Part shown: positions 22,245 to 50,503 of the stretch, in pieces | Layout of the letters: each line of letters starts with the position of its first letter | How positions within the stretch are numbered: position 1 is the first letter of the stretch | NCBI GenBank assembly: GCA_027484685.1 | Contig: JAIXSO010000046.1 | Location: forward strand, 1-64,000 | Length of the DNA: 64,000 bases | Reading direction: 5' to 3' | Source: Bacteroidota bacterium | Lineage (GTDB): Bacteria > Bacteroidota > Bacteroidia > UKL13-3 | Program-made: the position numbers and the translations under genes | Notes under the pieces: model-generated | Database searches by the model: none | The model's input: only the letters and a program-made list of their open reading frames with translations | What the model was told of the DNA's origin: nothing

Positions 22245-22311
22245 TCTTATAGCTTTCGGCAGCTGGCTTCTGGCAGCTAGCCATTTGTTTATTTGTTTTT
22301 TTGTGCGGGAT

Positions 22312-45816: not shown

Positions 45817-48489
45817 CTAATTATCATACCCCAAATTAGGAGCTAACCATTTTTCAACGTAGTCAATGCTTACGTTTTTGCGTTTGGCATATTCTTCTAC
45901 TTGGTCTTTTTGAATTTTACCAACTGCAAAGTATTTACTTGCCTCGTTGGCAAAATAAAAACCACTTACTGCCGAAGCTGGATACATGGCAAAGTTTTCG
46001 GTTAAAACAATACCAGCATTTTTTTCTGCTTGCAAAATATCAAACAACTTACGTTTTTCGGTATGGTCTGGGCAGGCAGGATAACCTGGCGCAGGACGAA
46101 TGCTGTTGTATTTTTCTCTGATTATTTCATCATCGGTTAATTGCTCATTTGGTGCAAAACCCCAATATTCTTTTCTAACCAATTCGTGCATTTTTTCTGC
46201 AAAAGCCTCAGCTAATCTATCGGCAATGGCTTTAATCATAATGCTATTGTAATCGTCATGGTCTTTTTCGTATGCTTCTACCAAAGGCTCAATTCCAATT
46301 CCGGCAGTTACCGCAAACATGCCTAAATAATCTTTTTTACCACTTTCTTTTGGAGCCACAAAATCAGCCAAACATAAGTAAGGTTGTCCATCGGCCTTTT
46401 CGCCTTGTTGGCGCAAATAGTTGAAAGTTGTTGGTTGTCCGTTGTTAGAAATAATTACATCATCACCATCAGCATTTGCTTCATAAAAACCAATTACTCC
46501 ACGAGCAGTAAGTAGTTTTTCGTTAATTACTTTATCGAGCATTTTGTTGGCATCGTCAAATAATTTTTTGGCTTCTACACCAACTATTTCATCATTAAAA
46601 ATGGCAGGATAACGCCCAACTAATTCCCAAGTTAAAAAGAAAGGAGTCCAATCAATGCGTTGGCGCAATTCTTCTAACGGAAAATTATCAAATACTTTTG
46701 TGCCTAAAAATTTAGGTGCAACAATATTGTCAAAACTAACAGGAATTTTATTGGTTCTTGCTTTTGCTAAATCAACCGAGTTTTTATCTTTTTTACGGTT
46801 TTTATAATCTATTCTAAATTGTTCGTACTCGTCTTTAAATTTCTTTTCCGAAGCTGCTCGTTGGTCTGGACTAATTAAACTTGCCGCCACAGGTACGCTT
46901 TTACTTGCATCTAACACATGCACAACTGGTCCGCTATAAACTGGGTCAATTTTTACGGCTGTATGCGCACGGCTGGTTGTAGCACCTCCAATTAACAAAG
47001 GAATTTTCATTCCTAAACGTTCCATTTCTTTGGCTACATGCACCATTTCATCCAAGCTTGGTGTAATCAATCCACTTAAACCAATTACATCTACATTTTC
47101 TTTAATGGCGGTTTCCAAAATTTTATCGGCAGGAACCATTACCCCAATATCAATTATTTCGTAATTGTTACAAGCCAACACCACACCTACAATGTTTTTA
47201 CCAATATCATGTACATCACCCTTTACAGTTGCCATTAATATACGGCCTTGGTTGGTGGTCATGTTACCATTTTTACGTTTTTCTTCTTCCATATAAGGCA
47301 TTAAAACAGCTACTGCTTTTTTCATTACACGAGCACTTTTTACCACCTGCGGTAAAAACATTTTTCCAGCACCAAACAAATCACCCACAATGTTCATTCC
47401 AGCCATTAAAGGGCCTTCAATCACTTCAAGTGGTTTGTCGTAAATTAACCTTGCCTCTTCGGTATCTGCTTCTACAAACTCAACAATTCCTTTTATTAAT
47501 GCATGACTCAAACGCTCTTGAACCGTTCCTTTACGCCATTCATCATCTACAATACTTTCTTTTCCTTTTCCTTTAACACGTTCTGCTAGTTCCAATAAAC
47601 GTTCGGTGGCATCGTCTCTTCTGTCCAATAAAACATCTTCAACATGTTCTAACAGTTCTTTGTCAATCTCGCTATAAACTTCCAATTGACTTGGGTTTAC
47701 AATGCCCATATCCATTCCGTTATTGATGGCATGAAATAAAAACGCTGAGTGCATGGCTTCACGCACTTTATCATTTCCTCTGAACGAAAAAGAAACATTG
47801 GAAACACCACCGCTCACTTTTGCACCTGGCAAATTTTCTTTAATCCATTTTGTTCCGTTAAAGAAATCGAGTGCATTTTTTCTATGCTCTTCCATGCCAG
47901 TAGCTACTGGAAAAATATTTGGATCAAAAATGATATCACCCGCAGGGAAATGAACTTTTTCAGTTAAAACCCTGTAAGCTCTTTCAGCAATTTCAATTCT
48001 GCGTTCGTAGTTATCCGCTTGTCCTTGTTCGTCAAAAAGCATTACGATTACCGCTGCACCAAAACGTTTTACAATTTTTGCTTGGCGGATAAATTCTTCT
48101 TCGCCACCTTTTAATGAGATAGAGTTTACCACACATTTCCCTTGCACACATTTTAATCCAGTTTCAATTATCTCCCATTTAGAGGAATCAATCATGATAG
48201 GAACACGAGAAATATCTGGTTCAGAGGCAATCAAATTTAAAAAGCGCACCATTGATTCCACACCATCAATCATTCCTTCATCCATATTGATGTCGATAAT
48301 TTGCGCACCGCCTTCTACCTGCTGACGAGCAACAGCTAAGGCTTCTTCAAAATTACCTTCACGAATAAGGCGTAAAAACATCTTAGAACCCGTTACATTG
48401 GTTCTTTCTCCCACATTTACAAAATTGGTATCTTTAGTAATTACCAATGGCTCCAAGCCCGAAAGGCGTAATGTATAATCTTTGTTCAT
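45817..48489 (-). CDS. metH: Methionine synthase, folate/B12/activation part of split MetH
   Basis: This 890-residue protein carries the three C-terminal modules of cobalamin-dependent methionine synthase. The pterin-binding domain has [18 protein letters not shown]. The B12-binding domain has [20 protein letters not shown], supplying the axial His, with [13 protein letters not shown]. The reactivation domain ends in [18 protein letters not shown] and binds SAM. It works with the homocysteine domain encoded at 49092-50096. Splitting MetH this way is known in Bacteroidota. Both halves are minus-strand and share the SAM riboswitch upstream, but a nuclease cassette lies between them. Confidence 0.95.
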
Positions 48490-48504
48490 TTATTTTTTTG
48501 CTTC

Positions 48505-48605
48505 TTTAACCACAGAGTTCACTGAGTTTTTAACACAGAGAACACGGAGTTCTTTTTTCTTTAAGCACAAAGTTCACTGTGGTATTTTTCACAGAGAGCA
48601 CTGAG
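48505..48605. repeat. Inner repeat block, metH2 side of the GxxExxY cassette
   Basis: TTTAACCACAGAG (48505-48517) opens a run of related units (TTCACTGAG, ACACAGAGAACACGGAG, TTCACTGTGG, CACAGAGAGCACTGAG). The outer 13 bases are repeated in inverted form at 49084-49096. The block lies 15 bases upstream of the second metH start. Confidence 0.75.
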
Positions 48606-48627
48606 TTTAAATAATCTAATTCTTTTT

Positions 48628-49002
48628 TTAATTCGCTAGCCTAATTATTCCTTCTTTTAAATATTTAACATTAAAGTTTATCAAAAGTCCAATTTTATAG
48701 TTACCTAACTTTTGATAAGTTAATAATTGAGCCTTATGAACATCATTCAATGCTTCAACGGATTTTATTTCAATTACAACTTTATTTTCAACCAGTAAAT
48801 CAATCCTATAACCAATGTCTAATTTTACTTCTTCGTAAATTAGTGGCATTGGTTTTTCTTTTTCTACAAATAATCCTTCATATTTTGTTAAACGATAATA
48901 CAAACATTCTTTATAAGCTGATTCTAATAAACCAGGGCCTAAAGTTTTGTGAACTTCAATAGAAGCTCCAATTATTTTACTTGTAATTTCATTTATCTCC
49001 AT
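48628..49002 (-). CDS. GxxExxY-family PD-(D/E)XK nuclease-like protein
   Basis: A 124-residue protein with the family signature GLLESAYKECLYYRL (G-x2-E-x2-Y) and, downstream, YRIDLLVENKVVIEIKSVEA: a D...E-x-K arrangement like the catalytic core of PD-(D/E)XK nucleases. It closes with YKIGLLINFNVKYLKEGIIR. The biological role of the family is unknown. ATG at 49002 is preferred to an in-frame TTG at 49023. The gene sits between the two metH halves, on the same strand, with inverted repeat blocks on both sides. This suggests a mobile cassette. Confidence 0.85.
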   Translation of the reverse strand: MEINEITSKIIGASIEVHKTLGPGLLESAYKECLYYRLTKYEGLFVEKEKPMPLIYEEVKLDIGYRIDLLVENKVVIEIKSVEALNDVHKAQLLTYQKLGNYKIGLLINFNVKYLKEGIIRLAN

Positions 49003-49029
49003 ATTCTCAGTTAACTCTTTCAAAAAAAT

Positions 49030-49096
49030 TTAACGTCCTCTGTTTAAATCTCTCCGTGACCTCAGTGAAAATATCTTTGTGTTCTCTGTGGTTAAA
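49030..49096. repeat. Inverted repeat block, metH1 side of the GxxExxY cassette
   Basis: GTCCTCTGTTTAAATCTCTC ... CCTCAGTGA ... GTTCTCTGTGGTTAAA. The last 13 bases are the inverse of 48505-48517. The metH1 stop codon (TAA on the minus strand, 49092-49094) lies inside this repeat. Confidence 0.75.
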
Positions 49097-50096
49097 TTCC
49101 TGAAACAGAATGCAACTCCCTTGGGCTGTAATTCGCAGCCATTTCTGCAATAGCTTTAATATGATCAGGAGTAGTTCCGCAACAGCCGCCTAGAATATTT
49201 ACCAATCCTTCTTTGCAAAATTCTTCTACTTGTTTTGCCATAGCTGCTGGACTTTCATCGTATTGACCAAATTCGTTTGGCAATCCAGCATTTGGATATG
49301 CGCTAACATAAAATGGAGAATGTGTTGCCATTACTTGTAAATACGGACGTAAAGCACTTGCGCCTAATGCACAATTTAAGCCTATACTCATTAAAGGTGC
49401 ATGTTGCATACTTATTAAAAATGCCTCTGTTGTTTGACCTGATAATGTTCTTCCAGATGCATCGGTGATTGTTCCTGAAATCATAACGGGATAATGTTTT
49501 CCAAGTTCTTCAAAAACTTCATCAACGGCATATAATGCAGCCTTTGCATTTAAAGTATCAAAAATGGTTTCAATCAATAATATATCTACACCACCTTCAA
49601 TTAATTTGATAGCTTGTTGTTTATATGCCTTTACTAATTCGTCAAAAGTGGTTGCTCTGTAACCTGGGTCGTTTACATCCGGACTAATAGATAAAGTTCT
49701 GTTAGTTGGTCCCATTGCACCAGCCACAAACCTAGGTTTATTAGGTTCTTTGGCAGTCATTTCATCAGCTACTTCTTTGGCAATTTTTGCTGAATAGTAA
49801 TTGATATCATCTACCAAATGCTCTAAATGATAATCTGCTTGCGCAATGGTGGTACCACTAAAAGTATTGGTTTCAACAATATCAGCACCTGCCTCAAAAT
49901 ACAAACGGTGAATGCCTTTTATAATTTCAGGACGGGTAATTGAAAGTAAATCGTTGTTTCCCTTTAACGGATGTGCATGATTTGCCAAAGCCTCATTTCT
50001 AAAATCAGCTTCTTCCAATTTATGTCGTTGAATCATGGTACCCATTGCACCATCCAAAATCACAATTTTTTTCTTAAGTATATCGTATATGTTCAT
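49092..50096 (-). CDS. metH: Methionine synthase, homocysteine-binding part of split MetH
   Basis: A 334-residue homocysteine S-methyltransferase domain: [20 protein letters not shown] at the start, ETNTFSGT, and the zinc site with GLNCALGA (first Cys) and [11 protein letters not shown] (two Cys). It takes the methyl group from methylcobalamin held by the protein at 45817-48489. ATG at 50096 is chosen over TTG at 50102. The stop codon overlaps the cassette repeat. A SAM-I riboswitch precedes it. Confidence 0.95.
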
Positions 50097-50503
50097 TTTC
50101 AATTTGCCTTTAGCTACTAGCTTCTGGCTACTAGCAATTTTAGTTTAAAAAATACAAAAGCTTTGCCAGTGGCTAAAAGCCAGCTGCCAGTTGCTAATAA
50201 TTATCCAGTAAACTTTTTCCGATTAGGTGTTTGATAGCAGCTCGTAACCGAGGCATTCATTCACTTATCAGTTCTCTCTTTTGGAGATAGGTATTGGCAC
50301 TCTGCTACTTGGGGTAGTTTTGCCAAGACATCATAGGGCCTATTCCCTCCGTCTTTCTGGATAAGTGGTGCAAATATAAAAAAATGTAAGATTTAAAAAA
50401 TTAAAAGATTTAAAAATTACAAAGTTGAAAGGTTGCAAAGTTATTGAATCAATAAACTTATTATTTCATTTCGAATTTTTGTCAATTTGAACTTCGCACT
50501 TGC
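50097..50503. other. metH leader and spacer
   Basis: The 407 bases between metH and corA contain the SAM riboswitch (50262-50367). Closer to metH are two inverted-type short repeats around AGCTTCTGGC (about 50115-50200), similar to 22257-22280. Beyond the riboswitch lies an AT-rich stretch with AAGTTGAAAGGTTGCAAAGT. No ORF is supported. Confidence 0.6.
50262..50367 (-). ncRNA. SAM-I riboswitch (S-box) of metH
   Basis: On the minus strand the aptamer reads CACTTATC (P1 5' arm), then AGACGGAGGGAATAGGCCCT, ATGATGTCTTGGCAAAAC, GTGCCAATACC and a final hairpin, closing with GATAAGTG (P1 3' arm). These match the conserved SAM-I core (GGAGGGA, GGCCC, ATGA, GGCAA, GTGCCAA). The distance to the metH start is about 165 bases, with a small CTCG-GTTA-CGAG hairpin between. 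Binding of SAM should lower metH expression when SAM is plentiful. Confidence 0.93.

Follow-up and report, generated by a model that had tools for sequence, protein, structure and literature searches.

The window, i.e. the whole 64,000-nt stretch of DNA analysed here, carries a cobalamin-dependent methionine synthase split into two genes, metH1 and metH2, with a small cassette between them (Table 1). The single SAM riboswitch match lies upstream of metH1, in agreement with the first-pass annotation, which had assigned one riboswitch to the operon. The TAA stop codon of metH1 falls within the upstream arm and the start codon of metH2 is located 15 nt past the downstream arm; both positions had been read correctly from the sequence at first pass. 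The start codon of the GxxExxY gene given by the ORF finder is TTG at 49023, and ATG at 49002 is equally plausible.

Table 1. Features of the metH operon and its cassette (positions within the window).
Feature	Position	Strand	Basis or remark
Whole cassette	48505–49096	-	GxxExxY gene between facing repeat arms, between metH1 and metH2
metH1, homocysteine S-methyltransferase half of MetH	49092–50102	-	ORF and profile match
metH2, folate/B12/activation half of MetH	45817–48489	-	ORF and profile match
SAM riboswitch upstream of the operon	50262–50367	-	RF00162, 70 bits
GxxExxY gene, 131 aa from TTG	48628–49023	-	ORF, PF13366/TIGR04256, predicted PD-(D/E)XK Cas4/RecB-like fold
Upstream arm (coding-strand 5' side), TTTAACCACAGAGAACACAAAG...CACTGAGGTCACGGAG	49052–49096	-	Holds the metH1 stop codon
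Downstream arm, CACAGAGNN-type units at 48511, 48534, 48566, 48590	48505–48608	+	Inverted relative to the upstream arm
Gene-free facing pair, type A ~7-nt array (GCTTCTGGCTACTAGC), interval between riboswitch and metH1 start	50106–50194	.	Pattern match

The cassette ends had been described as an inverted 13-mer plus further related units. This 13-mer, TTTAACCACAGAG, is indeed present at 48505–48517 with its reverse complement at 49084–49096, but the arms are facing tandem arrays of a ~9-nt unit (consensus as in Table 1, outermost TTTAACC) and not single 13-mers. They are complementary at 76% over 45 nt (48505–48549 and 49052–49096), further units of this kind lie at 48566 and 48590, and in the predicted fold of the cassette RNA (48495–49100) the outer arms pair with each other (z -5.2 versus 20 shuffles). 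The double unit CACNGAGNNCACNGAG, with at most one mismatch, occurs 6 times in the organism's own 4.5-Mb genome, 5 of them at the metH cassette, and the control pattern is found 0 times. A chance origin of the repeats was dropped because these genome counts, as well as the motif–gene counts given below, are far over the controls. No target-site duplication is evident by eye at the cassette, and the genus provides no empty site for comparison.

The operon carries a second pair of arrays, without a gene and of the kind found with type A four-helix-bundle genes (see below). Traces of two cassette classes are thus present in one metH operon. A further type A array, with three overlapping matches, is located at 22252–22281. 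A search of the window for four-helix-bundle proteins of type A or B gave no match.

The cassette gene is a clear member of the TIGR04256/PF13366 (PDDEXK_3) family (1.7e-40 and 5.8e-39; 138 bits versus the curated cut-off of 35, and 133.5 versus 22). PF13366 is its sole Pfam match at E 0.001, and a plain IS element or transposon was dropped as an identity of the cassette, since the PF13366 gene is alone inside and there is no transposase. The conserved residues E29, D70, E80-x-K82 and Q94xxxY98 (model numbering) are candidate nuclease residues. Five AF2 models were obtained with mean pLDDT of 48–87 (87 for the best one, 48–79 for the other four). The closest structure is Cas4 SSO0001 (4ic1; Z 10.3, 94 residues, rmsd 2.4), followed by BamHI, another Cas4, Hjc and AddAB, all with Z below 8; the best Foldseek E-value is 1.5e-3, with none at or below 1e-3, and the GxxExxY profile matches no solved structure at E 1. 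The predicted fold supports the PD-(D/E)XK-like core proposed at first pass, and the cassette protein appears to have this RecB-like fold in common with the Cas4/RecB nucleases. Cas4 carries four cysteines for an Fe-S cluster. In contrast, the cassette protein is small, possesses a single cysteine and hence no Fe-S cluster site, and no CRISPR genes adjoin it in the window; Cas4 proper was dropped on account of the one cysteine. The dN/dS of the cassette gene of the own genome (G000) against those of G004, G007 and G008 is 0.034–0.046. Judged from these sequence comparisons, the gene is under strong purifying selection.

GxxExxY genes are found at several operon sites. Within the genus their neighbours are sufD-sufS, rplS-valS and nuoE-nuoF (names assigned by eye), and annotation gives fabD-fabG and radA. 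By simple ORF calling rather than annotation (the same was used for the genus four-helix-bundle loci below), both neighbours lie on the strand of the GxxExxY gene in 52 of 61 loci and both on the opposite strand in 1 of 61; other adjacent gene pairs are on the same strand in 72%. GxxExxY was found in no phage record (E 1e-5) and in eight plasmid records. In four of these the arms exceed the 95% shuffle level: one from Gemmatimonadota, two from Bacteroidota and a marginal case from Spirochaetota. The arms of the plasmid genes of Sphingomonas, Fusobacteria, Persicobacter and Prevotella are not over this level.

The association of the arm unit with the GxxExxY family was analysed on 80 loci from named genomes, the top 80 among 301 relatives of the window protein, a choice that favours close relatives; 76 of these loci have both flanks, and 8 of the 80 come from, or resemble, the own family. 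The motif AACCRCNRAG is found within 250 nt upstream of the gene in 57 of the 76 loci, and 60 have the complement downstream; 47 loci possess both and 70 at least one of them, so that six of the 76 lack such an arm. The opposite orientation is rare (reverse upstream in 8 of 76, forward downstream in 12). The reversed motif gave 0 hits and the background expectation is 0.008 per flank. Without the eight own-family loci the motif is found at 62 of 68 loci, compared with 1 of 126 windows taken 1000–1250 nt away. The linkage between repeats and GxxExxY genes suspected at first pass therefore stands at 70 of 76 loci, beyond the own species. The metH cassette belongs to a wider class and is not peculiar to the metH operon.

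The unit itself varies. CACAGAG, CGCAAAG and CACAAAG are seen at the above loci, and the more distant GxxExxY subfamilies of the genus have units like CACAGATT, CGCAGATT and ACATAGA (the units of these subfamilies and of the four-helix-bundle loci were read by eye from the flanks; the scores were computed). The arm score climbs with protein identity, from 9.4 below 50% through 10.7, 11.9 and 13.4 to 15.0 above 80%, while the same-strand control also climbs, though less, from 9.6 to 12.8 (L038–L040 are excluded from this comparison). For GxxExxY pairs at different sites of one genus the score is 8.0–16.5, mostly near 10. The GxxExxY pair of the own genome, at 73% identity, reaches only 8.5. As far as such comparisons can tell, it is likely that each GxxExxY subfamily has its own repeat unit.

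At the metH1-metH2 junction the ten genomes of the genus (the own one included) possess three alternative occupants: the GxxExxY cassette in four, a four-helix-bundle cassette of type A in three and one of type B in three. The four GxxExxY cases agree with the earlier view of a discrete cassette whose presence is not vertical. The empty junction expected in sister species was found in none of the ten genomes; six of them hold unrelated four-helix-bundle cassettes instead. The repeat arrays at metH are GCTTCTGGC-like in type A and ATAGACC-like in type B, i.e. at one site the two types have differing units. One copy of type B at metH contains an inner stop.

Across family and class, 28 of 63 junctions are occupied (8 by GxxExxY, 8 by type A, one of these with weak repeats, and 12 by type B), and all 28 cassettes share the strand of metH. 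The other 35 junctions are short-gapped, fused, contain something else or have metH2 out of reach. Short-gap split sites, absent from the genus, do occur in other genera (e.g. with 34 and 24 nt between alignments); metH is fused in six relatives of the class. In G016 a type A cassette follows metH1, and no metH2 comes next within the sequence covered there. Gaps of 409–595 nt without any of the three types were observed at L174 (G060), L191 (G061), L195 (G062), L034 (G013) and L198 (G059).

The arms at metH are themselves subject to change. AACACAAAG, kept in G000, G004 and G007, has been lost from the left arm of G008, whose outer 36 nt are now equal to the genome's own right arm; one arm has evidently been copied from the other. 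In G004 (L011) the downstream arm carries a tandem duplication of its outer ~54 nt, hence an arm can grow by whole segments.

The sufD-sufS site, found in nine of the ten genus genomes, demonstrates nested replacement. G001, G002 and G004 carry one GxxExxY subfamily with CACAGATT arms. In G003 and G009 a second subfamily with CGCAAAG arms is nested within CACAGATT outer arms that have been retained; G000 and G007 carry the second subfamily, and the right outer arm is absent. G005 (L211) and G006 (L205) have no gene at this site and possess AGACGTTGC-type REP-like palindromes.

Placed on the host trees of sufD (9 genomes) and metH1 (10 genomes), the three cassette types of the metH site require six changes (minimum 2). 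The types show no clustering on the host tree, because label shuffles do as well. Each of the two starred clades of the metH1 tree includes all three types, and so does either side of the only branch starred in the sufD tree. The two trees disagree on the side to which G009 belongs, which means that recombination between species occurs. Close relatives with different cassettes are separated by a flank dS of 0.15–0.48. Between cassettes of the same type in different clades dS is 0.47–0.49 for GxxExxY, 0.73 for type A and 0.77–0.93 for type B, with 0.75–1.13 for the flanks. Type A pairs with G005 give 0.89–1.19 for the cassette and 0.98–1.28 for the flank; for the type B pair G002/G009 the corresponding values are 0.13 and 0.26–0.37. 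Taken together, the cassette and flank values indicate that the types are old and their occupancy is young.

The flanks also delimit the exchanged piece. In the cross-clade comparison (clades from the metH1 tree, G005 excluded, G009 being placed elsewhere in the sufD tree), the 80 nt of metH1 before its last 12 codons are 0.865 identical in same-type pairs (6 pairs) and 0.865 in different-type pairs (12 pairs), and the first 60 nt of metH2 are 0.906 identical in both. The last 12 codons of metH1 alone follow the cassette type (0.755 for same versus 0.495 for different). The equal flank identities imply that the exchanged piece is the cassette with at most ~36 nt. Recurrent occupation of one conserved site and short exchange tracts are homing-like features, seen here on a poorly resolved tree. 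In the GxxExxY protein tree (several genus sites represented by a single locus each, the suf site by two) the metH-site proteins require four changes across families and have a single origin in 0% of 200 bootstrap trees; the well-supported branches force two changes only, the bootstrap being unsettled and several rows long. We are confident that cassettes are exchanged at this site and that the arm unit is linked to the GxxExxY gene.

Repeats without a gene are common. The broad pattern of the GxxExxY unit gives 96 hits in the genus (control 2), 74 of which have no PF13366 gene within 1 kb, and in this respect the linkage expected at first pass is not supported. The opposite possibility, that the repeats are equally common far from GxxExxY genes, is not borne out either, as 22 hits are near PF13366 genes versus 0.16 expected. 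For the type A double unit 178 partly overlapping matches (control 2) are found in the own genome, in which the type A protein has nothing better than a 2.4e-22 match, versus 4.6e-67 in G001. It seems that type A arrays outlast or outnumber their gene. Of the five gene-free type A places inspected, four are facing pairs between genes.

The best surviving alternative to mobile cassettes, in our opinion unlikely but to be taken seriously, is that the three occupants are old, idiomorph-like standing alleles which are swapped by homologous recombination through metH and are now immobile, with arms whose role as sites of the small protein is regulatory or structural. The old same-type alleles do fit, at the level of sequence, such standing variation: dS of types A and B is near that of the flanks (0.73–1.19 versus 0.87–1.28), both types were seen at metH alone among 30 of the 76 four-helix-bundle loci of the genus, the cassette gene has a low dN/dS, and the discordant position of G009 testifies to recombination between species. 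Homologous exchange through metH should nevertheless drag the flanks along, but in metH1 such drag does not reach further than ~36 nt and in metH2 none is seen. The scattered metH-site GxxExxY proteins, which do not form one clade across families, the nested replacement at sufD-sufS and the dispersal of type A arrays also argue against immobile alleles.

The four-helix-bundle (S23/IVP) cassettes have arms of the same design. In the genus sample (30 loci of 76 matches, 28 usable) the facing arms score 17.4 on average versus 8.8 for shuffles, with 26 of 28 above the 95% level, and exhibit a 7-nt periodicity (0.432 versus 0.267 in the control). The genes form 12 groups with an arm match of 16.6 within and 8.7 between groups. 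However, in 29 of 30 pairs from the same group both loci occupy one site, and thus unit and site are confounded for these groups; the lone different-site pair scores 10.5. An own unit for each four-helix-bundle subfamily, as read from the genus groups, was given up owing to this confounding and to the weak match between sites. The class sample comprises 60 loci, the best 30 each for types A and B from 2 x 395 genomes of the same draw; the arms of 47 of the 60 are over the 95% shuffle level (mean 15.4 versus 8.1). For pairs at different sites the arm score is 8.6, 8.8, 10.0 and 10.6 at protein identities of <40, 40–50, 50–60 and 60–70% (controls 8.8, 9.0, 9.6 and 9.1), and 0, 1, 11 and 22% of the pairs score at least 14. 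It is possible, from these scores, that each four-helix-bundle subfamily has its own unit.

Of the 28 genus four-helix-bundle genes one is antisense to both neighbours and six are opposite to the upstream neighbour. Type B was found in no phage record (E 1e-3); a phage origin of the cassettes is without support, there being 0 phage records, and plasmid records are few. Seven plasmid records of four-helix-bundle genes were found, with arms above shuffles in four. Four of the six annotated plasmid genes are antisense to both neighbours, and with them an always-sense rule for the cassettes fails. A heptamer-armed four-helix-bundle gene is located between cas6 and cas4 on a Pseudanabaena galeata plasmid (L239), and another, antisense, between two ribonucleotide reductase genes on a Nostoc edaphicum plasmid (L240). 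Heptamers of the STRR type were reportedly described in cyanobacteria by Mazel and others in 1990.

The third plasmid case leads to ribosomal RNA. On the Azospirillum lipoferum plasmid AZO_p2 (L241, about 1050–1515) a four-helix-bundle cassette with GACRGAN-like arms is situated inside a 23S rRNA gene, the only one of 244 loci with resemblance to 23S rRNA. According to the available text of PMC4990558, a 23S intervening sequence (IVS) contains GACAGAT heptamers in 2–3 copies by its ORF and has paired ends, one such rRNA element is cut by RNase III in vitro, and the function and origin of 23S intervening sequences are called unclear there. The closeness of the Azospirillum arms to the published GACAGAT forms a bridge from the metH cassette to this known kind of element.

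Short-unit arrays of similar appearance have been published without a named gene. TAACTGA tandem arrays are orphans (PMC4679880), the tandem units GGGAATC of Xanthomonas and GGGGA(C/T)T of Nostoc are given in PMC4692102, and Geobacter has paired TCTCCGTS[Y] and other units (PMC2700814), of which the class 2 unit resembles, in our comparison, the reverse complement of CACGGAG. Like the cassette arms, these arrays are short and tandem and several of them are facing or paired; opposite-strand pairs are described in Geobacter (PMC2700814) and Xanthomonas (PMC4692102). Their roles in Geobacter, Xanthomonas, Nostoc and Beggiatoaceae are discussed as regulatory or structural, and the available text of the three papers (PMC2700814, PMC4692102, PMC4679880) does not link them to S23/four-helix-bundle or GxxExxY genes. 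Thus IVS elements and paired or tandem short-unit arrays are already known, while in the open-access literature we found neither a paper joining such arrays to GxxExxY or four-helix-bundle genes nor a description of the role or repeat arms of the GxxExxY family.

It is improbable, though it would account for several of these observations, that the arrays are MITE- or REP-like repeats moved in trans by an unrelated enzyme, with the genes as passengers caught between two copies. Gene-free arrays do outnumber gene-bearing ones, a palindromic repeat without a gene occupies sufD-sufS in G005 and G006, paired arrays without genes are on record for Geobacter (PMC2700814) and Xanthomonas (PMC4692102, both in the available text), and the arms of four-helix-bundle genes match the protein weakly between sites. 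Random capture, however, does not explain why one unit family goes with GxxExxY genes, nor does it agree with the fixed orientation of the arms (forward upstream in 57 and reverse in 8, reverse downstream in 60 and forward in 12; n = 76) or with the climb of arm similarity with protein identity. REP/RAYT systems and MITEs likewise have inverted short repeats by a gene plus gene-free copies, but the cassette differs in having tandem units and a place between operon genes, and REP/RAYT was dropped since the cassette gene is without a Y1-type (HUH) transposase domain. A module acting at the RNA level, in which each GxxExxY or four-helix-bundle protein binds the hairpin in its own transcript for autoregulation or processing and DNA exchange is incidental, draws on the sense orientation of GxxExxY genes (52 to 1, n = 61), the predicted RNA pairing of the arms and the finding that RNase III cuts an rRNA intervening sequence (PMC4990558, in its available text), but it is very unlikely in view of the antisense position of four of six annotated plasmid four-helix-bundle genes, of dispersed arrays devoid of a gene and of a top structural match, Cas4, which is a DNA nuclease.

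We propose that 48505–49096 is a mobile cassette of the IVS kind, transcribed together with its host operon, and that its Cas4/RecB-like nuclease probably has the arms as its target. For this chain as a whole, built on sequence comparison and a structural model, the chances appear to us to be even, and the same holds for the accompanying proposal that GxxExxY and four-helix-bundle cassettes form one class of repeat-armed elements with the 23S IVS as the known case. The mobile cassette shares with the 23S IVS (PF05635; available text of PMC4990558) the small single-ORF design and complementary ends that would pair in RNA, and four-helix-bundle cassettes of the S23p/IVP kind alternate with it at metH. 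It differs from the IVS in its position between metH1 and metH2 (there is no rRNA match in the window), in its ORF, predicted to be a PD-(D/E)XK protein and not the PF05635 four-helix bundle, and in its ~9-nt unit.

In the proposed mechanism the arms would be the cognate sites of the encoded protein, as the link between gene and arm suggests, and the GxxExxY nuclease would cut at or near arm-like sequence. A copy would then be laid in by short-tract repair and the occupant displaced, so that cassettes replace each other in the operon gap, in line with the exchange seen by comparison. In the transcript the arms are predicted to pair to a hairpin, which could be cut by RNase III as an rRNA IVS is; the message would be split by the insertion and the neighbours not killed. 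As the sequence shows, metH1 takes its stop codon from the upstream arm and the downstream arm terminates short of the metH2 start, and for this reason both neighbours stay readable. That the GxxExxY protein of the cassette acts on its own arms is, taken separately, a tentative assignment from sequence and model. Its cutting cannot be the general engine of exchange, because four-helix-bundle cassettes occupy the same site without a nuclease; the engine may be shared or external.

In the widest form of this proposal, which we put forward with reserve as somewhat short of probable, the cassettes would be single-gene selfish elements, each protein subfamily being addressed to its own unit (~7 nt for the four-helix bundle, ~9 nt for GxxExxY). 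They would compete for the gaps of conserved operons by surgical replacement, leave gene-free arrays and occasionally enter rRNA genes. If such a class is real, many orphan short-unit arrays of bacteria would be its footprints, which offers a possible origin for arrays discussed so far as regulatory or structural sites. The 23S rRNA intervening sequences would be linked to a wider set of operon-embedded cassettes, and the GxxExxY family, of obscure role, would gain a testable substrate in its own arms. If the subfamily indeed predicts the unit, which is supported for GxxExxY and weakly for the four-helix-bundle proteins, the recognition code would be open to direct experiment.
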